Source: an uncultured Bacteroidales bacterium
GTDB taxonomy: Bacteria; Bacteroidota; Bacteroidia; Bacteroidales; Paludibacteraceae
Assembly (NCBI GenBank): GCA_902792535.1
Contig: CADAZU010000012.1
Coordinates: 30,322-94,321 of the forward strand
Length of the DNA stretch: 64,000 nucleotides
Direction: 5' to 3'
Every line of letters starts with the position of its first letter. Position 1 is the first letter of the stretch. Below, in pieces: positions 32,740 to 62,807 of the stretch. The notes under the pieces were generated by a model, which saw only the letters and a program-made list of their open reading frames with translations, was not told where the DNA came from and did not search any database. A program made the position numbers and the translations under genes.

Positions 32740-32790
32740 GCGGGGAGTGCAAAAAAATAGCAAAGTAATAGCAAGCTACCCCGATTATGA

Positions 32791-32840
32791 CGCACTTATC
32801 TCACACTTATCACGCACTTATCACGCACTTATCACGCACT
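32791..32840. repeat. Tandem 11-bp repeats, 4.5 copies
   Basis: Units CGCACTTATCT, CACACTTATCA, CGCACTTATCA, CGCACTTATCA and a partial CGCACT step by exactly 11 bp between two divergent promoters. Confidence 0.9.
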
Positions 32841-48280: not shown

Positions 48281-48311
48281 CAAAATTACTACATTTTTTT
48301 GAGATGTGCAA
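48281..48311 (-). promoter_or_regulatory. Promoter of the PfkB-lon operon
   Basis: Minus-strand TAATTTTG (48281-48288), 20-bp spacer and TTG (48309-48311) within TTGCACATCTCA. Confidence 0.7.
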
Positions 48312-48389
48312 GTTTTGAACGTTTTTTTTATATAGGAGGTGGAAGATTGGCTTTCCGAGGGGCGGGGTTTGGGGATGCGAATGTGTCGC

Positions 48390-48458
48390 CACCGTATTAG
48401 CGCGGTTGTAGGAAGGGATGATAGTTGAGATTAATGGTCGTTTTTGTACTGATGTCAT
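48390..48458 (-). pseudogene. 5' remnant of a family 2 glycosyltransferase gene
   Basis: The minus strand reads MTSVQKRPLISTIIPSYNRA before losing similarity after about 23 codons. LISTIIPSYNRA is a classic GT2 N-terminus. The first 25 nt including the start match the start of the WbsX gene at 57223. The rest of the gene is missing. Confidence 0.6.
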
Positions 48459-48514
48459 ATATCGTATATTCTTTTGTTTACATTTTGTTTGATATGTATT
48501 CCTATTGAAAAAAA

Positions 48515-48588
48515 GCGATTTTACGCATATTTTAAAAAATAAATTTTGCGATTTTACGCATATTCCTTAAAATAAATTTTGCGATTTC
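48515..48588. repeat. 33-bp tandem repeat before an orphan promoter
   Basis: GCGATTTTACGCATATT recurs 33 bp later and GCGATTT a further 33 bp on (48515, 48548, 48581). The units are AT-rich and end in AAATTTT. Confidence 0.8.
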
Positions 48589-48600
48589 AAAAAAAAGTGG

Positions 48601-48608
48601 TATCTTTG
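48601..48608 (+). promoter_or_regulatory. Orphan promoter -7 box
   Basis: TATCTTTG followed by GCAGCG, as at true promoters in this window. The downstream ~450 bp has no convincing ORF, so it may drive a noncoding RNA or be a remnant. The gap 48459-48960 otherwise holds only repeats and an AGATTTGG/CCAAATCT hairpin near 48858-48882. Confidence 0.5.
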
Positions 48609-48769
48609 CAGCGAAATTTGACTTTTGCGATCCGCAAACATGAGTATCGTTTGACTTTTCCAATCGACATAATATACTAATTATTGACTTATTGATTTAC
48701 ATTTTGTAGGGTTGCCAACGTGACCGATTATTAAGATTCGGGCAGACACGTCAGGCTTACTACCCGGCG

Positions 48770-48802
48770 TACGAGAGACATACGAGACACCTACGAGACG
48801 AT
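48770..48802. repeat. Three tandem 11-bp repeats
   Basis: TACGAGAGACA, TACGAGACACC, TACGAGACGAT. Confidence 0.8.
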
Positions 48803-48960
48803 AGAAGCCCTAAAATCGCCCTTTTTCGTCCCTCAAAAGTTTCCTATTTTTAAGATTTGGCGGTTATACCCAAATCTGCCCAAGAGCAGCGCGACGTCAG
48901 CGCAGCCTCTGCCGCCCGAACCGATTTTGAAACGAACTTAAAAAGTTCCTGTTGTTAAGA

Positions 48961-49041
48961 AAAAAAATGACATGACCGTTCTGACCGGATTGACCGTTTG
49001 GGGTGAAACGGTCAAAAAGGTCAAAACGGTCATAACAAAAA
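48961..49041 (+). repeat. 3x9-bp inverted hairpin element, left copy
   Basis: TGACCGTTC, TGACCGGAT, TGACCGTTT (48973-48999), loop GGGGTG, then AAACGGTCA, AAAAGGTCA, AAACGGTCA (49006-49032). Flanked by A8TGACA on the left and AACAAAAAA on the right. An inverted copy lies at 61690-61773. Confidence 0.85.
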
Positions 49042-49129
49042 ATTATATTCGGCTGTCGACGAATTTAGGATGAGTGTAAACTATTTCAGGAAAGGAAAAT
49101 TCGCTTATTTTTCATGCAATTATGTTTTC

Positions 49130-49348
49130 TTACCTTATTGTATCTCGTTCCTCCTCATGTATCCGTTTGCGCTCCACGCGGTTGCGCTTCATTTGTTGGT
49201 AATAGACAAAGCCAGCCATCGGATGATGCCATTCGGCAGCGGCTTCATCTTCTATTTTTTCCAATTCCGCATCTTCCTCCCTGCGGAGTTTGATTTCCAG
49301 ACACCAGAAACGAATGTCAGAGATTAGTCGTTTTGTGTATTTGAACAT
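49130..49348 (-). CDS. Small charged protein, uncertain
   Basis: A 72-aa minus-strand ORF (MFKYTKRLISDIRFWCLEIK, then REEDAELEKIEDE and QQMKRNRVERKR), very rich in Glu/Arg/Lys and probably helical. It lies 55 bp downstream of the glycosyltransferase gene. The opposing plus-strand ORF (49070-49327) looks less protein-like. Not recognised. Confidence 0.45.
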   Translation of the reverse strand: MFKYTKRLISDIRFWCLEIKLRREEDAELEKIEDEAAAEWHHPMAGFVYYQQMKRNRVERKRIHEEERDTIR

Positions 49349-49403
49349 AACGGATATATGTTAATTTGTTTTTAATGCTTTATGAACTTTCGTAGTGCTC
49401 TGT

Positions 49404-50360
49404 CTATCGCTCGCACACAGATATTGTCCTTATAAGGTTGCGTAAGATCCAAATATTGATGAACCAAACGCACATACCATGGACGCGGATCTTGTATATG
49501 ATAATATTCCATAAACTCCGGTGCTCGTCCAATTCCACATTATTCCATAGACTCCAGCCGTCCTTCTCCGTGGTATAAATCCACTCTTCCGGCAAATCGA
49601 ACTGCTCCGCCGGATAAGCATTACTGCCGATATAATTTCGCCCCATGGTATATGGCGGACGGTGGTTCACCTGCCAATCGACAAACATATAGAACCGCTC
49701 TTTGGCACGCACTCTGTTCAGGGGAGCGGGACCAAGATGCAGCACGCGGAAATCCTTGACATGGGTCATGTCATGTTCGTCTAACGGATAAGGAATCCGC
49801 ATCGAGTGCATTTCCCGTACGTAGTTTCCGTGCGGCTCTACCCCATCATCGTGAAAGAGCCATGGATACGGATCGCGATTATTATAATAATGCTTCTTGT
49901 CATGCGTCAACTGCGCCCAATGAAACCAAAAGACCGCACCGGGTTTGGAATGCATAATCTTCTCCCAATCTTCTGTATCAAAGGCATTTGCTGCCAATAT
50001 CTCATCGGCATCCAGTCCCCAGAGAAGCGTATCGCGTCCGGCTGCCACTTCACGCGCCTTGGCAACCAATATCCGTTGCCGCTCCGCCTCGTTAAACTCC
50101 GTATTAGGGTTGTCAATGAGAATCACCTCAGAACGCTTGACATCATTCTCATCATTAAGCGAACTTGTGAGCTGTCTTTTATCTTTCGACCTTTGACTAA
50201 GCGCAGCATACTGCGCGACAATCTCTCGCGTCCCGTCCGTTGAAAACTGATCGCATATAATCACATAATCCGCCCACCGTGTAGTGGATTCCAAGAACGC
50301 CCGTATCACCCACGCCTCATTGCGTGTCGGCGTCATTACGATGTGAATTGGTTGACTCAT
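49404..50360 (-). CDS. Glycosyltransferase (GT2-like)
   Basis: A 318-aa protein whose N-terminus MSQPIHIVMTPTRNEAWVIR and YVIICDQFSTDGTREIVAQY match GT-A-fold glycosyltransferases; LLWGLDADEIL provides the DxD-type motif. Likely adds a sugar in surface-glycan synthesis. Its 5' 57 bp are duplicated at 52084-52143, next to the acyltransferase gene it probably once followed. Confidence 0.8.
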   Translation of the reverse strand: MSQPIHIVMTPTRNEAWVIRAFLESTTRWADYVIICDQFSTDGTREIVAQYAALSQRSKDKRQLTSSLNDENDVKRSEVILIDNPNTEFNEAERQRILVAKAREVAAGRDTLLWGLDADEILAANAFDTEDWEKIMHSKPGAVFWFHWAQLTHDKKHYYNNRDPYPWLFHDDGVEPHGNYVREMHSMRIPYPLDEHDMTHVKDFRVLHLGPAPLNRVRAKERFYMFVDWQVNHRPPYTMGRNYIGSNAYPAEQFDLPEEWIYTTEKDGWSLWNNVELDEHRSLWNIIIYKIRVHGMCVWFINIWILRNLIRTISVCER

Positions 50361-50549
50361 ATATATATTCGTTTTATTTCAAACTATACTCAGTACTCTT
50401 CCTTGAGTAATAGTGACAGACAAATTTCCGTCTATAGTGAATTGATAGATTCTTTATCAAATCTCATATTTTTGATATACATTTGGTACGGTATTAAGTC
50501 GATTTTTCTATTATATAGCATTATTTCATACCAAATCTCACTTTTTTCT

Positions 50550-50580
50550 TGCACATTTGGTAAATTATTTGTACCTTTGC
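50550..50580 (+). promoter_or_regulatory. Promoter of the first AAA/DUF4143 gene
   Basis: TTG (50550-50552, in TTGCACAT), 20-bp spacer, TACCTTTG (50573-50580). Confidence 0.75.
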
Positions 50581-50610
50581 GCCGAAAAAGTGTAAAGTTG
50601 CAGCCAAAAG

Positions 50611-50661
50611 TCGCCCGATAAAATGCAAACAACGCGCTTTTTCTCGCCCGATAAAATGCAA
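50611..50661. repeat. 18-bp direct repeat in the AAA leader
   Basis: TCGCCCGATAAAATGCAA at 50611-50628 and 50644-50661, a 33-bp step, within the 100-nt leader before ATG 50682. Confidence 0.85.
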
Positions 50662-50681
50662 CTAACTAATAAACCGATATT

Positions 50682-52010
50682 ATGTTCAAACGTAAAATTG
50701 AAGAGGTATTACTCAACTGGAAAAACAACCCTCGCCATAAACCTCTTGTGATTAAGGGAGTCCGGCAGTGCGGCAAGACCAGCTCTGTTAAGCAGTTTGC
50801 ACAGCAGCACTATGAGAATGTCGTGTACCTCGATTTTCGTGAGGATCCTAAACTCATTCCTCTTTTCGACGATTCTCTAAACGTGGACTATCTGACGATG
50901 GCTCTTACCGCTGCTATCCCCGGATCACATTTTGTACCAAGTAAAACGTGCCTCATATTGGATGAGATACAAGATTGTCCACGTGCTCGCGGGGCTCTGA
51001 AATTCTTCTGTATGGACGGACGATATGATGTTATCTGTACTGGTTCCCTCTTAGGAGTAAACGGGTATCAAACGCCCGAACAAAAGAAACGCTCCGAGTT
51101 GTCGTCTATTCCTGTTGGGTTTGAAGATATTCGTGAAATGTACCCGATGGACTTCGAGGAATGGCTTTGGGCAAATGGCATTAATGATGATGTAACTCAG
51201 TATTTGCGTGGCCAATTGGAGAACGAACAACCCGTCGCCCAAGGTATTCACTTGCGTTTACGTCAGTTGCTACTTGAGTATGTCATTGTCGGCGGTATGC
51301 CGGAAGCTGTTCAAACATTCCTTCTTACTCATGATGTCAACGAACTCAAAAGAGTACAACGTGCTATCATAGATGAATATAAGGGTGATATGATCAAGTA
51401 TGCACGTTCGGAAGACAAATCCCGCATTCGGGAGTGTTTTGAATCTATTCCTCGCCAGTTGGCGCGAGAGAACAAGAAATTCACCTATTCGCTGGTACGC
51501 TCAGGCGGACGAAGTAAGGAGTACGCCGGCAGTCTGCAATGGATTGAGGATGCAGGGATTATTCATCGTTGTTACAACTTGCAAATCACCGAGTTACCTT
51601 TGGACGGAAATGCTATACAAGATCATTTCAAAGTATATATGGCAGACACAGGACTCTTTATAAGTATGTTGGACGAGCATACCCAGTCGGACATTCTCCG
51701 TGGCAATCTTTTGAGTTACAAAGGGGCTATCTTCGAGAACTTAATGGCTGATTTCTTAGGTAAGAAAGGATATAAACTATATTTCTATCACAAACCGGAT
51801 AGCATTGAACTCGATTTCCTAATGAGATACCATGATGAATGTACCGTAATTGAATGCAAAGCTACTACAGGTAATGCCAAATCTTTAAAGACTGTATTGA
51901 ACCATCCTGAAAAATATCATGTCTTCCATGCTCTAAAGTTCGGAGATTATAATATTGGTAGGAATGGAGCAATACTGACTTTACCATTTTATATGGCTTA
52001 TCTCTTATAG
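50682..52010 (+). CDS. AAA ATPase with DUF4143 domain
   Basis: A 442-aa P-loop protein: Walker A VIKGVRQCGKTSS (~residue 24), Walker B CLILDEIQD and the DUF4143 C-terminal domain, which includes a nuclease-like element (DSIELDFLMRYHDECTVIECK). Such ATPases are common, variably located accessory genes in Bacteroidales; function unknown. It interrupts the glycan operon in the opposite orientation and is bounded by duplicated glycosyltransferase 5' ends. Confidence 0.85.
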   Translation: MFKRKIEEVLLNWKNNPRHKPLVIKGVRQCGKTSSVKQFAQQHYENVVYLDFREDPKLIPLFDDSLNVDYLTMALTAAIPGSHFVPSKTCLILDEIQDCPRARGALKFFCMDGRYDVICTGSLLGVNGYQTPEQKKRSELSSIPVGFEDIREMYPMDFEEWLWANGINDDVTQYLRGQLENEQPVAQGIHLRLRQLLLEYVIVGGMPEAVQTFLLTHDVNELKRVQRAIIDEYKGDMIKYARSEDKSRIRECFESIPRQLARENKKFTYSLVRSGGRSKEYAGSLQWIEDAGIIHRCYNLQITELPLDGNAIQDHFKVYMADTGLFISMLDEHTQSDILRGNLLSYKGAIFENLMADFLGKKGYKLYFYHKPDSIELDFLMRYHDECTVIECKATTGNAKSLKTVLNHPEKYHVFHALKFGDYNIGRNGAILTLPFYMAYLL

Positions 52011-52047
52011 ATATTGTCTATCACTATGTCAAAGATCGCTTATTTAT

Positions 52048-52080
52048 GCAACCGGCTGCAACGTCGGTTGCTTTTATTCT
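52048..52080 (+). terminator. Terminator of the first AAA gene
   Basis: GCAACCG/CGGTTGC stem followed by TTTTATTCTTT. The sequence ATGTCAAAGATCG just upstream also precedes the terminator of the second AAA gene. Confidence 0.8.
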
Positions 52081-52083
52081 TTA

Positions 52084-52143
52084 TTATATCACCCACGCTT
52101 CATTGCGTGTCGGCGTCATTACGATATGGATTGGTTGGTTCAT
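52084..52143 (-). pseudogene. 5' remnant duplicated from the 50360 glycosyltransferase gene
   Basis: Minus-strand MNQPIHIVMTPTRNEAWVI followed directly by TAA. About 91% identical over 56 bp to the start of the gene at 50360. Its ATG overlaps the acyltransferase stop (ATGA), as expected for the ancestral operon junction. Confidence 0.8.
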
Positions 52144-53150
52144 ATAGTTATGAAATATTTAGTATACTTATTGGTTTGTAAAAGCCATGTCAATGCCATA
52201 CATACTAATAGAGTAGCTATTGGTAAGATGACGCGTAATGGATAACAGAAACCTATTATTTCTTTATATACTGTGGTGTGATTCAACAAAGAAATCACCG
52301 ATGATTGCATTAGGTATATCGGCAATGAGTTGCGTCCTACATAACTCCAGAAAGCATTTTCTTTCCATTCAATCTTTTGAAAAAGCAAGCACACTCCGGC
52401 AGTTGCCAATACGATAATAGGTGACCAATAGCCATACCAAACAATCTCATTTGTTGGAATCCATTTGTGAGAGATATTCAACTCAGCCAAGGGACCTTCC
52501 AAGAACACCCAGTTATATCCCCATTGCGCCAGCAGCAAAACCACTATTGTTAATCCGACATGCCATGCTTTCAGTTTTTCCGTATGGAGATGACCGTCCA
52601 ACAAAGCATACCCCAACACATAATACAAAACAGGATACCAATCCCAACCATATAACGGATTATAAAACTTTCCGATGATTATATCAAAGAACCTCGTCGT
52701 ACACAAAAACAATATGACTATTAAATAGTACATCCCCTTTTTATTATAGTGGATAAAATAGTATAATATTGGATTGAGTATATTCAAAAAGAACAATGTC
52801 CGCAAGAACCACAAATGTCCACAATAATTCATAGAGATACGCATGGCATTGCCGAATAGAGTATCGCCCCACCTATAAGCCCATTCTCCGCGCAATGTCA
52901 TTTCTAACGCGGTCACAATAAATGCCCATAAGAATAATACAAGTAGTAGTTTTATATTCTTCTTGAGCATGTCGCCAATGGAGTGTTCTTTGCGCAACAT
53001 CAAATACCCGTTTACCATAAAGAATAACGGTACGCATATGGAATACATACTTTTGAAAAACAAACTTTCAAAAGGGAAATAATAACAATGCAGTATGATG
53101 ACCAAACTAATTGCAAATGCCTTGATATAATCTATGTATGTTAGTCTCAT
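52140..53150 (-). CDS. Acyltransferase 3 family membrane protein (OafA-like)
   Basis: A 336-aa protein with about ten membrane segments; typical start RLTYIDYIKAFAISLVIILH (conserved catalytic-type His at the end of helix 1), FMVNGYLML and a GHLWFLRTLF motif. Likely O-acetylates or otherwise acylates the surface glycan. Its neighbours are the GT32 gene (3-bp gap) and, formerly, the 50360 glycosyltransferase gene. Confidence 0.85.
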   Translation of the reverse strand: MRLTYIDYIKAFAISLVIILHCYYFPFESLFFKSMYSICVPLFFMVNGYLMLRKEHSIGDMLKKNIKLLLVLFLWAFIVTALEMTLRGEWAYRWGDTLFGNAMRISMNYCGHLWFLRTLFFLNILNPILYYFIHYNKKGMYYLIVILFLCTTRFFDIIIGKFYNPLYGWDWYPVLYYVLGYALLDGHLHTEKLKAWHVGLTIVVLLLAQWGYNWVFLEGPLAELNISHKWIPTNEIVWYGYWSPIIVLATAGVCLLFQKIEWKENAFWSYVGRNSLPIYLMQSSVISLLNHTTVYKEIIGFCYPLRVILPIATLLVCMALTWLLQTNKYTKYFITI

Positions 53151-53153
53151 ATA

Positions 53154-53885
53154 CTATAATCTAAATAAAACTTTTCTGGCTAAATGATATGCCTTATATG
53201 CGCGTGTCCCCCATAATTCGCCGAAGATCTTCTTCAAGTTTGTGCTCAATTTATCTTCATTATGCCATGAGCCTGCAAAGTGATGAATGGTATATGTATT
53301 CTCGGTCAAGTATATTTTCCCATCAACATATGATTTGGGGCAGAAATAATCCTTTTGGAATATGACTAATTCGTCATTTACTATTTGGAATTGTCCATTT
53401 GGAACCAAGCCGTGAATCATTGCGTGTTCTGTGATTATCTGCACATTAGGTTTAGTATTAAACGCCCCGTTGGATCTAATAAATGAAATATTATCATAAT
53501 ATTCAAGTTCGCGTTTTGCCCATGTGCTTCCTTTTTCCGCTCCCATAATTCCCGTAGGGATAGCTTCGTCTATCTCAAATCCAGAAAAAGCCGGATATTG
53601 CAAGAACTCGTCTAATGGTTTTAAAACCTCGACATCTGTATCCATGTATATTCCGCCATAGTTGTATAACGCATACAATCGTACAACATCTGTTACGAAT
53701 GCGAACTTTCTATTATGATACGCTTCTTTCACGAACTTGTTACTATTGATATCATAATTATCCTCATTCCATAGGTGCAATTCGTACTCTGGCAAGTACT
53801 TCTTCCAACTATCAATGCATTTTATAGCCAGTTCTGGCATTGGTCCACGTCCGAACCAACAATAATGAATAATTTTTGGTATCAT
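53154..53885 (-). CDS. GT32-like glycosyltransferase
   Basis: A 243-aa protein starting MIPKIIHYCWFGRGPMPE with the DxD motif in GGIYMDTDVEVLKP (~95-108). These are typical GT32 features. Probably transfers a hexose to the lipid-linked oligosaccharide. It starts 4 bp after wecB. Confidence 0.88.
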   Translation of the reverse strand: MIPKIIHYCWFGRGPMPELAIKCIDSWKKYLPEYELHLWNEDNYDINSNKFVKEAYHNRKFAFVTDVVRLYALYNYGGIYMDTDVEVLKPLDEFLQYPAFSGFEIDEAIPTGIMGAEKGSTWAKRELEYYDNISFIRSNGAFNTKPNVQIITEHAMIHGLVPNGQFQIVNDELVIFQKDYFCPKSYVDGKIYLTENTYTIHHFAGSWHNEDKLSTNLKKIFGELWGTRAYKAYHLARKVLFRL

Positions 53886-53889
53886 ATTC

Positions 53890-55077
53890 TCAATTCTCTA
53901 AAAATTTTGCTATTCTATTACAAGCCTTTCCGTCACCATACGGATTGACTGCTTGGCTCATTCTCTGATACGCCTCGGCGTCATCAAGGAGCGTACTCAC
54001 CTCCCCTACTATCTTATCATAGTTTGTTCCTACCAGATGGACGGTGCCAGACTTCAACGCCTCCGGACGCTCGGTCGTATCACGCATCACAAGTACTGGC
54101 TTACCTAATCCGGGAGCTTCTTCTTGAATGCCTCCGGAGTCTGTCAGGACAATGGTCGATTTCTCCATCAGATAAACAAAGCTTAAGTACTCAAGCGGTT
54201 CGATGAAATAGAGATTGTCGAGAGCTGAGAGCCGAGAACCGAGAGCGCATGGCTTATGGTTCTCTATCTCTCCAAACACCTCATGTATCGGTTTGCGGAC
54301 ATTGGGATTGAGATGCATCGGATATACAAAATCAACATCCGGATACTTGGCAGCCAAATCACGGATCGCAGTACACATAGAGATAAATCCATCTCCGAAA
54401 TTCTCCCGTCTATGCCCCGTTATCAGCACCAGACGGCGCTCTCCATCCAAACGAGCCGTATCATATCCGGCTTCCTTCAGCACTCCTGCCAATTCCTTTT
54501 GCAAAGCCTCGTCATTCTTGATTTTATCTACCACCATATACAGCGCATCAATCACCGTATTGCCGGTGACGATGATCTGGTTCTCAGTTACATTCTCGCG
54601 CAAGAGGTTCTGTTTCGCCAGAGGCGTGGGTGCGAAATGATGGGTCGTGATACGGCCTGTTATCTGGCGGTTCATCTCCTCCGGCCATGGGCTGTAGATA
54701 TTATGCGTGCGCAGTCCCGCCTCCACATGACCGACCGGTATCTGTTGGTAAAAAGCCGCAAGAGCCGCAGCAGTAGAGGTCGTGGTATCTCCATGCACGA
54801 GAACCACGTCCGGTTGCACCTCTTTGAGTATATCGCGCATACCAAGAAGCACACGGGATGTGACATCATAGAGATCCTGATTAGGCTTCATGATGTCCAG
54901 ATCATAATCCGGCACGATGTCGAAGATATGCAGCACCTGATCGAGCATCTGCCGATGCTGCGCTGTCACACACACCACCGTCTTAAACCTCTCTGGATGC
55001 GCCTGCAGCGTTTTCACCAGCGGAACCATCTTTATCGCCTCCGGTCGCGTACCAAAAACTAAAAGTATTATTTTCAT
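53890..55077 (-). CDS. wecB: UDP-N-acetylglucosamine 2-epimerase
   Basis: Makes UDP-ManNAc from UDP-GlcNAc. The 395-aa enzyme has the start FGTRPEAIKMVPLV, VHGDTTTS, HVEAGLRT and the catalytic GHRREN and SGGIQEEAP motifs. UDP-ManNAc or a derivative is thus a likely precursor of the locus glycan. Confidence 0.95.
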   Translation of the reverse strand: MKIILLVFGTRPEAIKMVPLVKTLQAHPERFKTVVCVTAQHRQMLDQVLHIFDIVPDYDLDIMKPNQDLYDVTSRVLLGMRDILKEVQPDVVLVHGDTTTSTAAALAAFYQQIPVGHVEAGLRTHNIYSPWPEEMNRQITGRITTHHFAPTPLAKQNLLRENVTENQIIVTGNTVIDALYMVVDKIKNDEALQKELAGVLKEAGYDTARLDGERRLVLITGHRRENFGDGFISMCTAIRDLAAKYPDVDFVYPMHLNPNVRKPIHEVFGEIENHKPCALGSRLSALDNLYFIEPLEYLSFVYLMEKSTIVLTDSGGIQEEAPGLGKPVLVMRDTTERPEALKSGTVHLVGTNYDKIVGEVSTLLDDAEAYQRMSQAVNPYGDGKACNRIAKFLEN

Positions 55078-55080
55078 ATA

Positions 55081-56118
55081 TTAGAAATTTCTTATTTGTG
55101 TAATAACATATCTACCTGCCTTAGCTATCGGAGATATAACAGAAAATAGGCATATTGTATAAGTAGGATACTTGAGTGCGAAATTCACCCATCCGGTAAA
55201 TTTATATCTGCTAAGTTCCTCTCTATTCTTATCACCTAAGCTTTGGTATATATGTCTAATATCACTTACTGAATATTTTGACATGTTTCGCATTCGTAAT
55301 AGACCTATTACGTATCTATAACGGGCTTCTTCTTTAAGAACATTTGCTAAATTTGGCAAGGTGTTATTTATTTCATCGGCATAATGCAACAATCTTAACC
55401 CTGCATATAACTGTTCTCCTATGGTATTGGCCATATTAGCGATACTACATGTATTTGTATCATTTTGAACATACCTGTAGCCTACTCCATCCACAAACTG
55501 TATCTCTTTTGCTTTGGCATACACTTTTACAGTCCAATCGCAATCTTCCCAACGAACACCTTCGACAAAACGGATATGTGTTCCTTTTAGAAATTCGGTT
55601 CTATACAAGCAGCGAACCGGGCCATTGTAATAACATGTATAATAATTTTCCAGGTACTCTTTGCTGGACATAATTGTATTATGGGTTGCCTCTGGCATTT
55701 CTACCAAATGCCACTCATCATCGGGACCATTTTGATATTCCATCTCAAAGTAGCAGACATCAGCATGACTTTTCTCTACAGCGCGCAAGGCATTTATTAC
55801 ACCTTCTGGCAACATGTAATCATCAGCGTCGCAGAAAGTTATGTATTCTCCTTGGGCGGCATCTATACCCACATTCCGCGCCGCTCCTTGACGTTTATTC
55901 TCCTGTTGCCGGAAAATGCGTAAATTGCTATGTCCTCTCGCATACTTCTGAAGAATATTGTATGTATCATCAGTTGAGCAATCGTCTACTACGATAACTT
56001 CAAATGTATCTTCAGTAATTGGGATTGCATATATACTATCAAGGCATCTCTCTATATATGGCGATACATTGTATGCTGGGATTATAATAGACAGATTATT
56101 ATGTGCGTTATTTTCCAT
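55081..56118 (-). CDS. Family 2 glycosyltransferase
   Basis: A GT-A enzyme of 345 aa: NLSIIIPAYNVSPYIERCLD, then VIVVDDCSTDD and ITFCDADDYM (DxD). The ORF extends to 56139, but ATG 56118 (MENNAHNNLSII) gives a normal start and overlaps the WbsX stop by 11 bp. Sugar and linkage unknown. Confidence 0.88.
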   Translation of the reverse strand: MENNAHNNLSIIIPAYNVSPYIERCLDSIYAIPITEDTFEVIVVDDCSTDDTYNILQKYARGHSNLRIFRQQENKRQGAARNVGIDAAQGEYITFCDADDYMLPEGVINALRAVEKSHADVCYFEMEYQNGPDDEWHLVEMPEATHNTIMSSKEYLENYYTCYYNGPVRCLYRTEFLKGTHIRFVEGVRWEDCDWTVKVYAKAKEIQFVDGVGYRYVQNDTNTCSIANMANTIGEQLYAGLRLLHYADEINNTLPNLANVLKEEARYRYVIGLLRMRNMSKYSVSDIRHIYQSLGDKNREELSRYKFTGWVNFALKYPTYTICLFSVISPIAKAGRYVITQIRNF

Positions 56119-57223
56119 ATACTTCTGCTTGCAAAGCATCTAAATAGGCATGTCCATATTTTAAATCCGGCTCAAGATAATTTCCCTCAGCCCATTCGTT
56201 CCACGATTTAATCATCAAAAAACGTTGTTCAAATGGTTTTTGCCCAATTGAACCAATCATTGTATGCAAACATTCTTGAAATGAGTGCGGAGATGAGTTG
56301 TACAAGATAATTCCTCTTCTGCCCGTACGTGGGGTATGATCCCAATTGGGAGTCACCGATGGGATTACATTAACTTCTTTGTCTATTGGCGATTGCATTT
56401 GAAAAATTCCATATGGTCTCAAATCGGGAATACATTTGAGCCATTTGAATAAAACTTTACGCATCAAGCGGAATTTTATGTCATATGAAGAAGTGGGAGC
56501 ATCATATGAATTTATTACGTTTAGCGCGTCAAATCCTGCTTTCAAGAACTTATGGTATGTTTCTTCTGCAAGTTCTCTATCATACAATCTGCCGCAAATA
56601 CCAATGAAATAGATACCCTTTAACCCACATTCTATTGCTAATGTTTGCCATAGTTTAATAAAATGCGTAATATCCGGCATCTCGAATGGTCTATATATTA
56701 AGAAGATAGGCTTTCCCTCACAGGTAATATATCGTTTATCTTTGAATGCCGGTAACACGGTGTTAAAATGTGCAATATAGTCTTCCTCTCCGGGATAAGT
56801 CTGCTCAATTAATACATTCCCCTCCTTTAACCCGTGAAAACTACCGCTCCAACTCTCATTCGCCCATGCGAGTGCAAAGGGGAAATCGGGTTTGCCGGAA
56901 GCAAGAACTTCATTGAACGGGCGCTCCAAGAGGCGTTTGCCGTTACCGAACCAATAGTGCCAATACACAAAGCCTTCTACCCCTGCCTTACGAGCCATCT
57001 GAGCTTGCGCTTCGCGGGTCTCAGGCACTCGCAGATCATAATAGCCCAAGTCCGCCGGCACATGCGGTTGATAGTGTCCGGGGAAAAGCGGCTTGGCTTT
57101 TCCTACATTGGTCCATTCCGTAAATCCTTTACCCCACCACTCATCATTCTCCGGTATCGGATGAAACTGCGGCAGGTAATACGCCAGCACTCTGGCTTTG
57201 GGTTGTTTTTGTTCTGATGTCAT
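56108..57223 (-). CDS. WbsX-like glycosyltransferase (GH99-like)
   Basis: A 371-aa protein with ARVLAYYLPQFHPIPEND, WWGKGFTEWTNV, FVYWHYWFGNGKRLL and ENES/WNEWAEG motifs, typical of the WbsX family found in O-antigen and exopolysaccharide loci. Enzymatic role assumed from family context. First surviving gene of the central run; the AAA cassette lies just upstream. Confidence 0.88.
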   Translation of the reverse strand: MTSEQKQPKARVLAYYLPQFHPIPENDEWWGKGFTEWTNVGKAKPLFPGHYQPHVPADLGYYDLRVPETREAQAQMARKAGVEGFVYWHYWFGNGKRLLERPFNEVLASGKPDFPFALAWANESWSGSFHGLKEGNVLIEQTYPGEEDYIAHFNTVLPAFKDKRYITCEGKPIFLIYRPFEMPDITHFIKLWQTLAIECGLKGIYFIGICGRLYDRELAEETYHKFLKAGFDALNVINSYDAPTSSYDIKFRLMRKVLFKWLKCIPDLRPYGIFQMQSPIDKEVNVIPSVTPNWDHTPRTGRRGIILYNSSPHSFQECLHTMIGSIGQKPFEQRFLMIKSWNEWAEGNYLEPDLKYGHAYLDALQAEVYGK

Positions 57224-57317
57224 ATATTGTTTCTTCTTTTATTTGCAATATTTTTGATACGTGATGACAATATTTTGATAAAAATGATATATTTTTAGTC
57301 AAATTTCATTTATTTTC

Positions 57318-57348
57318 TTGCTTATTTGGAAAAATAGTTGTACCTTTG
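57318..57348 (+). promoter_or_regulatory. Promoter of the second AAA/DUF4143 gene
   Basis: TTG (57318-57320), 20-bp spacer, TACCTTTG (57341-57348). The leader to ATG 57479 is about 125 nt and contains a repeated TTGTATAACT. Confidence 0.75.
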
Positions 57349-57478
57349 CGGCGAATTTGTGTTATATGAGACACAAAAACAATAGAATTATGTTTCCTGA
57401 AAGAAACAAAAACAAATAAATTCTGTGTCTTGTATAACTCGAATAGCTCATTTTTGTATAACTAAATTCACATCAAAT

Positions 57479-58678
57479 ATGGATAGATTATTTGCTCAAC
57501 AAGACCGTCTACTGTCGCAAACTCCAATGGAAATTATCAGGAAATGCGGCATGGACATCAATTGGAATGCCCGGATGATGGCGATTAGAGGTCCAAAAGG
57601 TATTGGTAAATCGACGCTTTTAAAGCAATACATTCGTCAGCATTATAAGACTGGTGACAGAACAGTACTCTATTGCTCGTTGGACAATAACTATTTTGCA
57701 GACCATTCCATTTTAAATCTGGCAGAAGAGTTTTATTTGAAGGGAGGAAAGCATTTGTTCTTGGATGAGATACACAAATATGCCCATTGGAGCCGCGAAC
57801 TGAAAGAGATATACGATGTCTATCCGGATATGCAAGTAGTGATTAGCGGCAGTTCTTTATTGAGTTTGCAACAAGGTGAAGCGGATTTAAGCAGACGATG
57901 CATCAACCATGATTTTCAAGGCCTCAGTTTCCGGGAATACCTGCAATTCTACAAAGGGATAGATCTGCCCACATGTACCTTGCAGGAGATGCTGGAAAAC
58001 CCGTACCCATTCCTTGAGAGAGTATATGCTCAGTGCAAGCCCATGGCTTTTTTCGATGATTATCTTTTATACGGCTACTACCCATATTACAAAGAGAATG
58101 AGATTGATTATTATTCCGTCATTAATTCCGTCATGGGCTATGTGATCGATGATGAGTTGCCCAGAATCTGCGGAGTGGATTTGGAAAACACCCGTAAGAT
58201 CCGTGCACTAATGAACATCCTTGCTGCCAGTGAGCCTTATGAGGTGGATATTTCGCGAATGTCAGTACAAAGTGGACTGCAACGAAAAACCATTTTGACG
58301 TATTTGAAGTATTTGTCCGATGCCAAATTGGTTAATCTGCTATATAGCGACTTTATCAATGTGAAAAAAATGCAGAAGCCGGACAAGATCTACATTGAGA
58401 ACACGAATATGCTGAAGGCTTTGGCTACACATCCCATTAAAGAAGGTACTTTGCGTGAAACATTTGCCATTAACCATTTAGCATTCACACATTCAGTGGA
58501 ATACGGCAAGCAGAAAGGAGATTTTGTAGTGGATGGCAAGTACACTATCGAGGTTGGAGGACAAGGTAAAACCACTAAACAAATTGCCAATGTCCCCAAT
58601 GCCTATATCTTAGCAGATGACATTGAATTTCCTATTGGAAACAAGTTACCACTATGGATTCTCGGTTTCCTATATTGA
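57479..58678 (+). CDS. AAA ATPase with DUF4143-like domain
   Basis: A 399-aa P-loop protein: Walker A IRGPKGIGKSTL (~residue 37), Walker B LFLDEIHK and a C-terminal half with YIENTNMLKAL and VDGKYTIEVGGQGK, the positions of the DUF4143 nuclease-like core. A diverged relative of the 50682 product with the same gene layout (own promoter, long leader, shared 3' motif and terminator). ATG 57479 is chosen over the ORF extension from 57425. Confidence 0.83.
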   Translation: MDRLFAQQDRLLSQTPMEIIRKCGMDINWNARMMAIRGPKGIGKSTLLKQYIRQHYKTGDRTVLYCSLDNNYFADHSILNLAEEFYLKGGKHLFLDEIHKYAHWSRELKEIYDVYPDMQVVISGSSLLSLQQGEADLSRRCINHDFQGLSFREYLQFYKGIDLPTCTLQEMLENPYPFLERVYAQCKPMAFFDDYLLYGYYPYYKENEIDYYSVINSVMGYVIDDELPRICGVDLENTRKIRALMNILAASEPYEVDISRMSVQSGLQRKTILTYLKYLSDAKLVNLLYSDFINVKKMQKPDKIYIENTNMLKALATHPIKEGTLRETFAINHLAFTHSVEYGKQKGDFVVDGKYTIEVGGQGKTTKQIANVPNAYILADDIEFPIGNKLPLWILGFLY

Positions 58679-58710
58679 TTTTTATCAAAATATGTCAAAG
58701 ATCGTTTTTT

Positions 58711-58740
58711 ACAACCATCCACACGGGTGGTTGTTTTTAT
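58711..58740 (+). terminator. Terminator of the second AAA gene
   Basis: ACAACCATCC/GGGTGGTTGT stem with ACAC loop, followed by TTTTTAT. The upstream ATGTCAAAGATCG is shared with the first AAA gene. Confidence 0.85.
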
Positions 58741-58806
58741 TGCGGGTTATTCAAAACTTTGTTATATACTTCCATTATCTTTGGGTCATAGACCTCTTGG
58801 TTTAGG

Positions 58807-60045
58807 TTATTGATATAGGCTTATTCGGCTCTCTCTCAATGCCTGAATAGAATATTTCGCTGCTATCACCCCGCGTAGACTCATCACGAATTTTTGACGT
58901 AGAGATTTGTCTTGTAATTTCAATATATCATCTATAAATTGAGATGGAATATCTGTAATAAAACTATTCTCTCCATCTATCAGCGGCAAGCCTTCTCCTC
59001 CAACATGAGTTGTTACTACCGGAACATTTAATTGTGCTGCTTCAAGTATCTTCATCCTGATACCGCTTCCAATATTTAGAGGAACTATCATTGTCGTTCC
59101 AGCCAAAGCCTTTCTTAAATCATCCACGAAACCAACACAGTGCACCTTGTTATTGTATTTTTGAGCAAGTTCATTTGCCGTTTGCTCAGACCACTTTCCT
59201 ATAATTTGAAAATCATATTCGGGATCTCGTGCTAGTAACAATGGCCAACAATTCTCCAAGAACCACATTATTCCGTCATAGTTTGGATAGTGTGATTCAG
59301 GTCCCACATAAGATAAAACTTTTCGTACTGATGTTTCAACTGTTAACTGACACAGAGAAGGATTTACAATAGCTAATGAAGTTGTAATTGGTGTTGTAAC
59401 TCCTGCCTCTATCAGTTTTTTTGTATCAATGAGCGAAAGCGTAATCACATGGTCATATTTATTATGTAATTCAATTTCCTCTTTCTTGTTTTGATTATAC
59501 ATAGCATTCATTGTTTCTGTAATATTTTCCATAGTCTGTAGAAACAACTCGTCACGAACAAATTTAATTTCATGCTGAACAAATATAGTTTTAACTTCTT
59601 TAGGCAAGGAATTGATCAGTCTAATATCTGGCATCATTTCCACTTGAACGATGTCTATGTGATATTGTTTAATTGCATTAAGTACGAAAGTTATTTTATG
59701 TTCTGACAATTCACTAATTGATTCTATTCTTAATTGAGGATTTGCTACTTCTTTGGGAGCATCATTTATTCCCAATTTCCCTTTCAATTTATTCATTAGT
59801 ACCTTCCAATACCATTTTATAGTATGTTTGGAAGCTGGGTCAATATTAGATAGAACATGTACAAATGGTAGTGCTTCTTCGATAAGTCTATCCTCTCCAC
59901 GTTTATGCTGGCTTTCCGTTGTTTCAACATAGATATACACATTAGCAACATCCTTCAATATGGCTATTCCATTGAAGATAGCTTGATGTCCTCCGCTTAC
60001 CAATGGATACGGATTAAATGGCGGAATGATTAGTATATTTTTCAT
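58807..60045 (-). CDS. GT4-like glycosyltransferase
   Basis: A 412-aa GT-B enzyme: ILIIPPFNPYPLVSGGHQA at the start and a C-terminal VPLNIGSGIRMKILEAAQLN (GT4 nucleotide-sugar site) followed by VVTTHVGGEGLPL. Donor unknown. Its start overlaps the end of the upstream glycosyltransferase gene by 32 bp. The sequence is AT-rich compared with the chromosome backbone. Confidence 0.87.
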   Translation of the reverse strand: MKNILIIPPFNPYPLVSGGHQAIFNGIAILKDVANVYIYVETTESQHKRGEDRLIEEALPFVHVLSNIDPASKHTIKWYWKVLMNKLKGKLGINDAPKEVANPQLRIESISELSEHKITFVLNAIKQYHIDIVQVEMMPDIRLINSLPKEVKTIFVQHEIKFVRDELFLQTMENITETMNAMYNQNKKEEIELHNKYDHVITLSLIDTKKLIEAGVTTPITTSLAIVNPSLCQLTVETSVRKVLSYVGPESHYPNYDGIMWFLENCWPLLLARDPEYDFQIIGKWSEQTANELAQKYNNKVHCVGFVDDLRKALAGTTMIVPLNIGSGIRMKILEAAQLNVPVVTTHVGGEGLPLIDGENSFITDIPSQFIDDILKLQDKSLRQKFVMSLRGVIAAKYSIQALRESRISLYQ

Positions 60046-61222
60046 TTTTTAATTCATTTAATAAATTCATCCATAAATTAGAAATATTTTCTAATGAAAA
60101 TTTTTCGACATAATTTAAAGCGTTGTTTCGCAAATACATTAGTTTGTCTTTTTTTAACATTAATGTTTGCATTGCTTTTACTAAGGCTTGAGGACTTTGG
60201 TTAGAAACAATTTCTCCATTATAGTCAGAAACGATTATGTCATGAACAGCAGGATATGAATCAGTAACAATTGGCACAACTCCCATGCGTTGCGCTTCCA
60301 ATAACACATTCCCAAATCCTTCCATGCGAGATGTTAATAGGAGTATTTTTGCTTTTTTATAATATGGAATTGGATCTTGAAATCCTGTAAATGTAACGCG
60401 TTCAAGACAATAATCTTTAGCCATCTGCTTGTATGAGGTTAAATCCTCTCCATCTCCAACCATTTCTAAACGCCAATTTTGGATTTCATGATCTTTTATG
60501 CTTTCTATCATATGCCATGCATTAATCACAATACTAAATCGTTTAGTACTTTCCTGCATCCTCCCCACAACTAAAACTATATTTTCCTTTTGATTTATTT
60601 CACTATCTAAAATATTAAATACTTTTGTAATAGGGTTAGGTATTGCACAAACTTTATCATATTGGGGACATATACTACCATCTATGTATTGTTCTCTATA
60701 AGCGTCCGATAAAAATACATACTTATCCACATATGGTAGTATTGAATCTACTACTTGCGCGGCCTGTTGAATTCTGCGTTTTTCATAATGCTTGGGGAAT
60801 AAAGAATGCTTTATCCATCTTTTGAATGTTTTAGGTTTTTCATATGGTGGGACAAGCATTGTTCTAAGGCACCACACTACACTTGCATTTGTTTCTTGCT
60901 TTATGTTTTTTATAAACGATAATGGCAACCACTGATTTATCACTATATCAATAGATTCTTTATTAATCAGATCACATATCATACCACAAACGTTAGCTTC
61001 ATCTTCTACATCATTACTTGTAAATTCATCACACAATCCGCCTTCTATGAGATGTTGCCTAATACGCTCGTCTACAAAAGGTTTTGTACCATACTCGGTG
61101 TGCTTAAAATATGCAATATGAACAATGATTCCCTTTTTAGAAAATTCGTTTGCCCACAATCTAGTCATTGCTTCTCCTCCGCCAAAAACTGGCCATAATC
61201 GGAGTAAAAATAAAATATTCAT
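60014..61222 (-). CDS. GT4-like glycosyltransferase
   Basis: A 402-aa GT-B enzyme: NILFLLRLWPVFGGGEAMTR, VVGRMQESTKRF, and SRMEGFGNVLLEAQRMGVVP with the E-x7-E signature. First gene of the minus-strand glycan transcript. Low GC, like its neighbour. Confidence 0.9.
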   Translation of the reverse strand: MNILFLLRLWPVFGGGEAMTRLWANEFSKKGIIVHIAYFKHTEYGTKPFVDERIRQHLIEGGLCDEFTSNDVEDEANVCGMICDLINKESIDIVINQWLPLSFIKNIKQETNASVVWCLRTMLVPPYEKPKTFKRWIKHSLFPKHYEKRRIQQAAQVVDSILPYVDKYVFLSDAYREQYIDGSICPQYDKVCAIPNPITKVFNILDSEINQKENIVLVVGRMQESTKRFSIVINAWHMIESIKDHEIQNWRLEMVGDGEDLTSYKQMAKDYCLERVTFTGFQDPIPYYKKAKILLLTSRMEGFGNVLLEAQRMGVVPIVTDSYPAVHDIIVSDYNGEIVSNQSPQALVKAMQTLMLKKDKLMYLRNNALNYVEKFSLENISNLWMNLLNELKNEKYTNHSAI

Positions 61223-61425
61223 ATAATCACAAATTATTCTGTTATAAACACTTGTTTCCCTATATATTCATAAAATTGTCTAATTTCAAATATGCAATTT
61301 CATTTTTTATAAGTAGTACGTGTAGATTATCTTTAAGGCTCTCTATTAACTTTTTAGGTATCGAGTCAAAAGTTTACGATTTTTAAGATTCCATCTCAGT
61401 TATCGAGTCAACCTTTTTCAGTTTT

Positions 61426-61535
61426 AATCAACCTTCCATCTACCTTTCAACTACCTTTCAATAACGCAACCATCACGCAACCACCTCGGGAGAACCTCGG
61501 AACCCCTTCGGGACAAACTCGGGAGGACGTAGTAA
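61426..61535. repeat. Ten-unit array with 11-bp period
   Basis: Consecutive 11-mers AATCAACCTTC, CATCTACCTTT, CAACTACCTTT, CAATAACGCAA, CCATCACGCAA, CCACCTCGGGA, GAACCTCGGAA, CCCCTTCGGGA, CAAACTCGGGA, GGACGTAGTAA. Neighbouring units are similar while distant ones are not. It is in the gene-free gap 61223-62026. Confidence 0.85.
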
Positions 61536-61558
61536 TAAATTAGTATAAAAATTTGTAG

Positions 61559-61681
61559 TGGCAGAAATGGCAATCTTGGCACTTTCTTTCATTTTGTAAA
61601 CTACAAACAGATTGTTTCTTTAATTATAGTGGCGATTTCCTGACAGTTTGTAAGTTTCTGCCATTTATGCCACTTCTGCCA
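61559..61681. repeat. Second 3x9-bp inverted element
   Basis: TGGCAGAAA, TGGCAATCT, TGGCACTTT (61559-61585) are answered by TTTCTGCCA, TTTATGCCA, CTTCTGCCA (61655-61681). The 69-nt centre has further pairing (AAACTACAAACAG with CTGACAGTTTGTAAG). It abuts the TGACC element. Confidence 0.75.
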
Positions 61682-61689
61682 TGTCAATT

Positions 61690-61773
61690 TTTTTGTTCTG
61701 ACCGTTTTGACCTTTTTGACCGTTTCACCCCAAACGGTCAATCCGGTCAATTCGGTCATGTCATTTTTTTTTC
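61690..61773 (-). repeat. 3x9-bp inverted hairpin element, right copy
   Basis: Inverted copy of 48961-49041: TGACCGTTT, TGACCTTTT, TGACCGTTT (61699-61725), loop CACCCC, AAACGGTCA, ATCCGGTCA, ATTCGGTCA (61732-61758), then TGTCAT and a T run. About four differences over ~80 bp relative to the left copy. Confidence 0.85.
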
Positions 61774-62026
61774 GAACACCCTGTTCAAAAACGCGACGTT
61801 GGTTATTCTTGTATATTCTTAGTCATCCGTTACCCATTACCGATACTATCTGCTGTCAAAATCCCTTCAATTCCGTGACCATCTCATTCGCATCGTGAAC
61901 GTCTTTCTTAATAAGTTCTTGCGGACTATGGAATTGTTCTGATTCATTCTTTCTTAAGTCGTTCTCGGAACATGATCCCGTGATGGTCCTGTTCTTATCC
62001 GTAGATTATCCACGGAACGATTATTA

Positions 62027-62398
62027 CTAATCCGTATTTTCCCCTTTTCTCAGCTGCCTTTGTATCACGCTTTGAACATACCTATCCAAACGCAGGTAAA
62101 TATGCCTTTTCCCTGTTTTACGCTCTATGGGTGCATCGGGTTCGGGCGTTTCCAACTGGGCGTGCCAGCGGCGGCTCCATTCGGCTCTGCGGACGGGGTC
62201 TTTCAATTCCTCCAGAGCCATCGTCATAGAAAGATGGAAGATAGAGGTATTACGCACCTCGCCCTCACGCAAAGGATGCGTCTCATAGTCACGCGGCTTG
62301 GCCACGAAATAGACCTCCTCTGCTCCATAACCGACCACCACGCCTTCTTCATCGCGGTAGGTCTTACGTCTTCTGATTAAACTTTGTTGCGGTTTCAT
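62027..62398 (-). CDS. Small protein of unknown function
   Basis: A 123-aa basic protein: MKPQQSLIRRRKTYRDEEGV, then AEEVYFVAKPRDYETHPL, a helical middle (MTMALEELKDPVRRAEWSRR) and a charged C-terminus. It resembles unnamed ~120-aa proteins I associate with Bacteroidales genomes. The start is the ATG at 62398 (two codons into the ORF). Confidence 0.65.
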   Translation of the reverse strand: MKPQQSLIRRRKTYRDEEGVVVGYGAEEVYFVAKPRDYETHPLREGEVRNTSIFHLSMTMALEELKDPVRRAEWSRRWHAQLETPEPDAPIERKTGKRHIYLRLDRYVQSVIQRQLRKGENTD

Positions 62399-62408
62399 AT
62401 ACAAAAAA

Positions 62409-62460
62409 TTCCCATCTTAACAATTTACCGGCATTTACCGGATCGTTGTCAAGATGGGAA
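62409..62460 (-). promoter_or_regulatory. Long hairpin just upstream of the 62398 gene
   Basis: TTCCCATCTT (62409-62418) pairs with AAGATGGGAA (62451-62460), with an inner ACAA/TTGT. The loop holds two TTTACCGG. It is part of a ~390-nt leader counted from the promoter at 62800. Confidence 0.55.
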
Positions 62461-62799
62461 ATGGAGTGAAAAACAGGTATTCCGTTTCGGACATCAAAAA
62501 ACGCGGATCTCTTCTCTTGCTTATCCGCCGTTTGTGGTCCTAGGAAAACCAATATATCCGAATAAGCAATGCAGAAACCCACGCCGTGTATATATGCACA
62601 CGCGCGTACCAATAAAGACGGCACGCACGGGTGTAGATACACCCATGGGCATCTACCACTACTTGTTTTTTAGATATATTGACTTTTGAAATTTCCTAGG
62701 TTTCAAACGGTCAAAAACAAGCGTTAGTAAACGCCATTAAATATGTCTGCTCCCTCACTCCGAAATATCACGCAGACACCCCAGCGTGAGTTTGCGCTG

Positions 62800-62807
62800 C
62801 AAAGGTA
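62800..62807 (-). promoter_or_regulatory. Promoter -7 box upstream of the 62398 gene
   Basis: Minus-strand TACCTTTG followed by GCAGCGC. The 62461-62799 stretch contains a GGGTGTA/TACACCC hairpin (near 62631-62646) but no convincing gene. Confidence 0.6.

Follow-up and report, generated by a model that had tools for sequence, protein, structure and literature searches.

Composite TGACC hairpin repeats and a structured leader RNA at a glycan locus of an uncultured Bacteroidales bacterium

REP and REPIN sequences, which go with RAYT, are short inverted palindromes in intergenic DNA, and Porphyromonas gingivalis, a member of the Bacteroidales, is the host of another of the repeats considered below. 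Here we analyze a stretch of 64,000 nucleotides (the window) from an uncultured Bacteroidales bacterium of the Paludibacteraceae, in which two hairpin elements of about 80 bp, built from 9-bp units with the word TGACC, lie in inverted orientation on either side of a locus of glycan genes. An earlier note on this DNA suggested that they could be the ends of a mobile island, recombination sites for inversion or exchange of the locus, or structured RNAs. We consider it probable, instead, that the element is a BOX-like modular repeat, that a module of it came to stand on both sides of the locus by chance, and that one of the two copies is part of a conserved end of glycan operons.

The BOX repeats of Streptococcus pneumoniae are composites of modules in variable number that form hairpins as RNA, are nearly confined to close relatives, and occur clustered and inserted into one another; target duplications and an excess between convergent genes have been reported for them (PMC3049150). 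The BrickBuilt miniature inverted-repeat transposable element (MITE) of P. gingivalis is intergenic and consists of tandem repeats, with a 23-nt direct-repeat unit, between a leader and a tail; its ends carry small inverted repeats resembling those of insertion sequence (IS) elements, and strain ATCC 33277 has 19 copies of it (PMC4596501). Palindromic candidate structured RNAs of Bacteroidetes measure 80–132 nt, three of the four are predicted Rho-independent terminators, and they adjoin genes for phage-related domains, TPR, ruvA and tonB (PMC8040213).

The repeat described here resembles BOX in combining distinct modules whose number and order vary, in its predicted hairpin-forming RNA, in its occurrence in close relatives, and in its clusters and nesting, a likeness judged by architecture and not by sequence. 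It differs in that its arms are three 9-bp units with a changing word and its leader is made of 11-bp repeats, and in that no convergent excess was seen and no target duplication was established. With BrickBuilt, likened on the same terms, it shares repeats with leader segments and an intergenic position, whereas the BrickBuilt unit is a 23-nt direct repeat and no IS-like terminal inverted repeats were established for the element here. It is palindromic like the candidate RNAs of PMC8040213, which were compared by description and not by sequence, and it has different genes nearby. It also has the short, dispersed inverted-repeat structure of a MITE, and shares with REP/REPIN the short inverted palindromes in intergenic DNA; unlike REP/REPIN, it is not associated with a Y1 HUH transposase, and the breakpoints that a mobile island would place at the elements lie elsewhere (48302 and 62495). 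None of the papers listed in searches of one open literature library describes the element.

Anatomy of the composite repeat

The left hairpin module occupies positions 48961–49041 of the window (+ strand) and the right one, in the opposite orientation, about 61690–61771 (− strand). The earlier note was accurate on their anatomy: the two are nearly identical (79 of 83 aligned bases are equal), and each has three TGACC units spaced 9 bp apart, then a short loop and the three units in inverted form, with unit starts in the left copy at 48973, 48982, and 48991 (TGACC) and at 49010, 49019, and 49028 (GGTCA). It was equally right that a low-GC glycosyltransferase region separates them, as the intervening DNA has 39.5% GC, compared with 49.8% in positions 1–48960, and encodes glycan genes. 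A triple-TGACCG pattern with up to three mismatches occurs five times in the window against 0.03 expected, and four of these five are the four arms of the two elements. The predicted RNA fold of the left copy reaches −36.7 kcal/mol for the + strand and −40.3 kcal/mol for the − strand (z −7.9 and −9.8), and no shuffled sequence folded equally low. Read on the − strand, the direction of the operon, the left module is a hairpin followed by TGTCATTTTTTTT. The element matches no family in Rfam 15; the only hit was mir-360 at E 0.94, its 22.8 bits falling short of the gathering score of 60.

The complementarity of the arms is imperfect in a patterned way: the words pair, in the outer and middle units the spacers are largely unpaired, and the inner spacers are paired to a degree that was reached by 1, 0, 3, and 5 of 500 shuffles. 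A strict 9-bp period, a conserved word between largely unpaired outer and middle spacers, and the use of different words within one framework might suggest that the units are sites for a DNA-binding protein dimer, with modules of differing specificity. We regard this as improbable, given that the tight loop, the inverted arrangement, and the paired inner spacers favor a hairpin and that there is no candidate protein.

The likeness between the two window copies is confined to about 83 bp, and their outer flanks are different repeat leaders. The right copy stands in an array that continues, on the − strand, with a short palindrome module, GAACAGGGTGTTCGAA (61771–61786), and the leader core ACTAAGAATATACAAGAATAACCAACG (61797–61823), the terminus of a series of degenerate 11-bp repeats; a second hairpin module (61559–61681, − strand) has three TGGCA units, a 77-nt inner stretch, and three TGCCA units. 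The left hairpin is preceded by another type of leader (48724–48960, + strand), a dispersed repeat with more copies in the organism's own draft genome (G000; 2.37 Mb, 83% complete) and in two relatives of the same genus, G104 and G059, which are drafts of 71–82% completeness. The 11-bp type of leader finishes in ACTAAGAATATACAAGAACAACTAACG or close forms. The own genome has 11 places that fit the leader-core pattern with up to three mismatches (nine without any, one with a single mismatch, and one with three) and none that fits its reverse. A repeat unit is made up of a leader built from degenerate 11-bp repeats, then a short palindrome and at least one hairpin with three 9-bp units in each arm, and the five-base word of these units differs by module.

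This variation of words was examined with a detector of periodic hairpins that presupposes no word. Run on loci selected for the TGACC word, it returned 93 distinct hairpins of 9-bp period, with the words TGACC, TGCAC/TTGCA, TGGCA, and TGAGA, compared with five matches at period 7, one at period 8, and none at periods 10–12; 650 kb of shuffled DNA contained no hairpins. Across 289 kb, comprising the window and 15 stretches downstream of FabD in relatives, it recovered only the window's three hairpins, and the other periods from 6 to 13 gave none. Modules can also be nested, with TGGCA arms surrounding a TGACC hairpin.

Two readings of the sequences near the hairpins were discarded. That the leader core is coding sequence was given up, as several copies, inspected by eye, contain an in-frame TAA. 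The AAAAATGACAT border resembled a module marker, being found at 33 places with none for the reversed pattern, but does not provide a module count, because about 13 of 30 loci, as judged by inspection, represent promoter antisense adjoining CAAANGTA. As separate observations, drifting 11-bp tandem repeats such as TTATCACGCAC and AATAACCCCCT occur in the window at 32785–32840 and 61431–61524 and also at loci L192 and L193. Noncoding tandem arrays of periods 7, 8, 9, and 11 number 1, 3, 5, and 1 in the window and 8, 5, 3, and 7 in the 15 relative stretches, with none of periods 10, 12, or 13 in either. The rsmH gene of the own genome (L104) has NPTPALPSREGG within its protein, resembling a palindromic repeat translated as coding DNA.

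Distribution, module exchange, and gene context

The earlier note had called for a count of the element across the genome, and it is indeed repeated there, with eight full-length copies in the own draft, six of which are unpaired as far as the contigs reach. A search of 100 relatives with an E cut-off of 1e-5 matched nine, every one a member of the same genus. The exact pattern of three plus three units was found in 62 stretches of named genomes, of which 59 are Bacteroidales, Paludibacteraceae, or Bacteroidia records, and many of the records with the pattern are titled after ruminants. The three remaining stretches belong to Kiritimatiellae (L058), the PVC group (L069), and Hydrogenedentota (L085); A-rich borders are absent from L058 and L085, and in L069 only one side shows a short A-run. 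A viral origin was considered and set aside, as no stretch of the viral_contigs set carries the exact pattern.

At fixed sites, the modules differ between close species. At the trmB site, module sets differ among G000, G104, and G059, the only three of 30 trmB loci with a TGACC triplet or a leader core, and at the orthologous C4 site they again differ among the same three genomes. The four mraZ–rsmH loci compared (own genome, G104, G022, and G139) contain four different repeats that could not be aligned by eye, and among 30 rsmH loci the leader core is found in the own locus only. The genes trmB, rsmH, and mraZ were named by eye, and the search for orthologues yielded few clean sites. Among 48 distinct oriented elements, three loop types are found either way round, with the caveat that the flanks of one type leave its orientation unsure and that another holds within a single mismatch; loops in both orientations indicate a process acting on DNA inverted repeats. 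We infer recombination as the route of exchange: modules combined differently at orthologous sites of three close species may move from site to site through ectopic recombination or through template switching within the inverted repeats, and not by way of a dedicated transposase.

Several points weigh against this reading. One array, flanked by the same pair of genes in both genomes, is reversed in G104 relative to the own genome, which could also reflect transposition, and one 105-bp indel with a 4–5-bp repeat is ambiguous. The sites compared include no clean empty one with a target-site duplication, so that neither mobility nor immobility is proven. The autocorrelation of the upstream flanks, which peaks at lag 11 (z 8.4) in 35 nonredundant but related sequences, is raised at lag 7 as well (z 6.3), and it is not an independent statistic for the 11-bp repeats because the flanks are mutually related. 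Finally, copies will have been missed because the own genome, G104, and G059 are drafts (71–83% complete).

The same observations bear on the possibility that the repeat is a nonautonomous transposable element, a MITE or REPIN, moved by a transposase such as a RAYT/Y1 HUH enzyme. Copies at unrelated sites, A-rich borders, nested modules, and the array inverted between the same genes would all be expected of such an element, and an IS-like end, TGTCTTGTCCTGAAATATGTTGACAC, adjoins two copies (L008 and L026), although it differs from the element's own ends (a comparison by eye, with no systematic search). No target duplication is established, and the distribution of the enzyme does not follow that of the repeat: Y1_Tnp matched 30 of 101 genomes of the genus, which among the 11 known carriers include G000 (below the cut-off), G022, G044, and G055 and exclude G104 and G059, both many-copy carriers, in a tally that concerns drafts and assumes the same sampling of genus genomes as the trmB comparison. 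As Y1 transposase and element show no association, mobilization by RAYT was rejected, and we consider a transposable element in general unlikely. The own genome does contain a RAYT-like gene with an HFH motif (L115, 1228–2424; 20.2 bits to Y1_Tnp, below the cut-off), which is flanked by apparent restriction subunit genes (neighbors named by eye).

The position of the repeat relative to genes can be compared with the behavior of terminators. Elements lie in 32 tandem, eight convergent, and one divergent context, against a background of 68, 21, and 27; 28 of 69 elements were left unclassed (19 close to a locus end and nine beneath an open reading frame [ORF] call), and gene calls are simple ORFs. 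They are rare between divergent genes (1 of 41 vs. 27 of 116, P = 0.0016), a P value that is rough because orthologous sites were counted separately and the off-clade L058 was included, and convergent pairs were not enriched (8 of 41 vs. 21 of 116, P = 0.82). This depletion, together with the very stable hairpin, would suit functional transcription terminators or mRNA 3′-end stabilizers retained at gene ends. So would the left copy, which lies 3′ of the last gene in the orientation that gives a hairpin plus T-run, as does the hairpin after the last gene at four glycan operons in all. Other features fit such a role poorly: the T-run is present on one strand only, with about 5 nt separating it from the stem, and is lacking from the right window copy in the operon direction, several copies at a DUF3987-type site stand 33–37 nt upstream of a start codon, and the 32 tandem contexts show no significant orientation preference (19:13, P = 0.38). 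A terminator or stabilizer function is therefore possible but doubtful, and the gene context appears to resemble more closely that of repeats tolerated behind genes, as has been argued for BOX (PMC3049150).

The glycan locus and the limits of alignable DNA

The glycan genes between the elements (49404–61222, − strand) encode a glycosyltransferase of family 2 (GT2), an acyltransferase 3 family protein, a glycosyltransferase with a DXD sugar-binding region, a UDP-GlcNAc 2-epimerase, a further GT2, a WbsX protein, and two GT1/4-type glycosyltransferases; two AAA/DUF4143 genes lie within the same interval on the + strand. In G104 the corresponding place, defined by FabD, PfkB, and Lon, holds other glycan genes, with FabD on one side and a helix-turn-helix (HTH) gene, Lon, and PfkB on the other, and the flanking genes of the two genomes share 87–92% DNA identity. 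The locus is thus variable, as had been proposed. Among the 15 relative stretches downstream of FabD, of which five are ended by a contig end at 2.2–11.9 kb, seven hold both FabD and Lon, at distances of about 1.2, 1.8, 3.1, 3.8, 11.1, 14.5, and 15.4 kb.

The variable segment extends past both elements (48303–62494). Long alignments to G104 stop at 48302 and 62495, which is 659 and 724 bp outside the elements, and the exceptions inside the segment are 49126–49356 and one 31-bp match. None of the 15 FabD stretches, five of them cut short by a contig end, contains the TGACC triplet or the leader core, both sought as exact and hence strict patterns. These results speak against the two hairpins as ends of a mobile island, and inversion of the locus finds no support in G104, which keeps FabD, the glycan genes, and PfkB–Lon in the order and on the strand of the window. 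The comparison with relatives that the earlier note had proposed accordingly revealed a difference in content and no inverted state; no sequencing reads were examined for the orientation of the locus.

The elements might still be thought of as terminal or recombination sites of a glycan island, given their inverted placement at both sides of a variable locus and the presence of the hairpin at the 3′ end of two further glycan operons in G059 and one in G104. Weighed against the limits of alignable DNA, the absence of the exact triplet from 15 relative stretches of the same place, the six of eight own copies that stand outside any such pair, and a common sequence of only about 83 bp, this becomes highly improbable. 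A close inverted pair arises in about 14% of simulations with eight random placements, so that the bracketing is compatible with chance.

A structured leader RNA and the conserved ends of glycan operons

Just inside the left hairpin lies a 0.3-kb segment with a small gene of 72 codons plus stop (MFKYTKRLISDIRFW...; 49130–49348, − strand), the last gene of the glycan operon, which in its 75-aa form from relatives has no match in Pfam or NCBIfam. The segment is present in six copies in three genomes, five of which (C12 of the own genome, C15 and C17 of G104, and C4 and C13 of G059) have a shared leader 6–13 kb away, in the matching orientation and with glycan genes in the interval, as read for C17 of G104 over the last 7.4 kb of genes; at the sixth copy, on C6 of the own genome, no leader was looked for. 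In four of the six (own C12, G059 C4 and C13, and G104 C17) a TGACC hairpin comes after the small gene, always in the same orientation; none was found there in the sequence examined of G104 C15 and own C6. The order of leader, glycan genes, small gene, and hairpin thereby recurs at two more operons of G059, in whose stretches the element is at the 3′ end only, and in G104 glycan genes, small gene, and hairpin have the leader 10 kb upstream. Since four of the six small-gene copies have it behind them in one orientation, the hairpin travels with the 3′ end of glycan operons, and the left copy is part of this conserved end and not randomly placed. The right copy looks independent and stands in a separate array.

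At the front of the operon we find a conserved structured leader RNA of about 300 nt (62498–62790, − strand; model R1 matches 62500–62713), with a promoter-like TACCTTTG at 62800–62807 and, at its end, a terminator-like hairpin from 62529 downward with a T-run. Nine leaders from three genomes align (one row is short at the 5′ end), and their consensus fold has nine pairs changed on both sides, seven of them in a long closing helix. A covariance model matched 67 of 393 genomes of the order and 39 of 206 genera at E up to 0.01, where E values are rough and some of the matches are weak or antisense. An alignment of 41 matches, among them 40 distinct ones of which three are antisense owing to the near-palindromic RNA, was fitted to the model and hence is biased towards it. 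In it, 93.6% of cells pair, and both sides have changed in 55 of 62 pairs. Covariation amounts to 0.540 compared with 0.212 in shuffled alignments (0 of 500 as high), pairing falls to 34–47% when partners are slid by 1–3 columns, and a de novo fold of the same alignment gives 52 pairs, 46 with changes on both sides. In 36 of 38 matches, a set that counts one place twice (L302/L064), at least six T are found among the 10 bases after the last hairpin, and in 32 of the 38 TAnnTTTG occurs within 170 bases upstream, as opposed to 238 of 2,220 random 170-base pieces from the same loci. With promoter motif, structured RNA, terminal hairpin plus T-run, and gene following one another, the arrangement is attenuator-like, and the leader looks like a putative attenuator.

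Scans against Rfam 15 gave no match on the modelled part of the leader, at E up to 1 for the window, up to 0.5 for three loci, and up to 0.1 for twenty loci; L302 gave one miRNA match at E 0.24, on the other strand and touching the promoter end. A literature search for the leader found no description, the candidates of PMC8040213 being known by description with sequences not compared. Genes downstream of the leaders, judged by eye, are mixed and include BspA-like surface proteins, MBOAT acyltransferases, glycan genes, and short HTH genes. The leader also precedes glycan or surface-protein genes at L295, L298, L302, and other loci. Between it and the right array lies orf125 (62027–62404, − strand), which has no Pfam or NCBIfam match and is 33% identical to proteins of L077 (892–1266) and L072 (584–964). 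The orf125 family comprises small proteins of no recognized kind that adjoin hairpin arrays, the L077 member being located behind a DUF3987 gene.

On our favored reading of a modular repeat, the left copy would have moved along with the 3′ end of the glycan operon, and the right copy would have arrived in an independent array. Glycan operons at the FabD–PfkB–Lon place may have been swapped by recombination with limits outside the hairpins, plausibly through shared operon ends, the leader RNA on one side and the small gene on the other. A broader picture, which we put forward as speculative and rather unlikely in its entirety, is that of a stock of interchangeable hairpin words that renews itself, the word changing on the two arms in concert and the 11-bp leaders feeding the stock, with sites trading whole modules; in parallel, glycan operons would be exchangeable cassettes whose standard ends (an attenuator-type leader RNA, and the small gene with its hairpin), and not the hairpins alone, serve as homology handles.

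The eye-catching but misleading interpretation of the hairpins as island ends gives way to a testable one of modular repeats, and because module composition changes at fixed sites between close species, module exchange becomes observable. In these gut bacteria, surface-glycan operons share a standard front end and a standard back end, and the leader RNA, present in many genera of the order and with no Rfam 15 match on its modelled part, is a likely control point for surface molecules.

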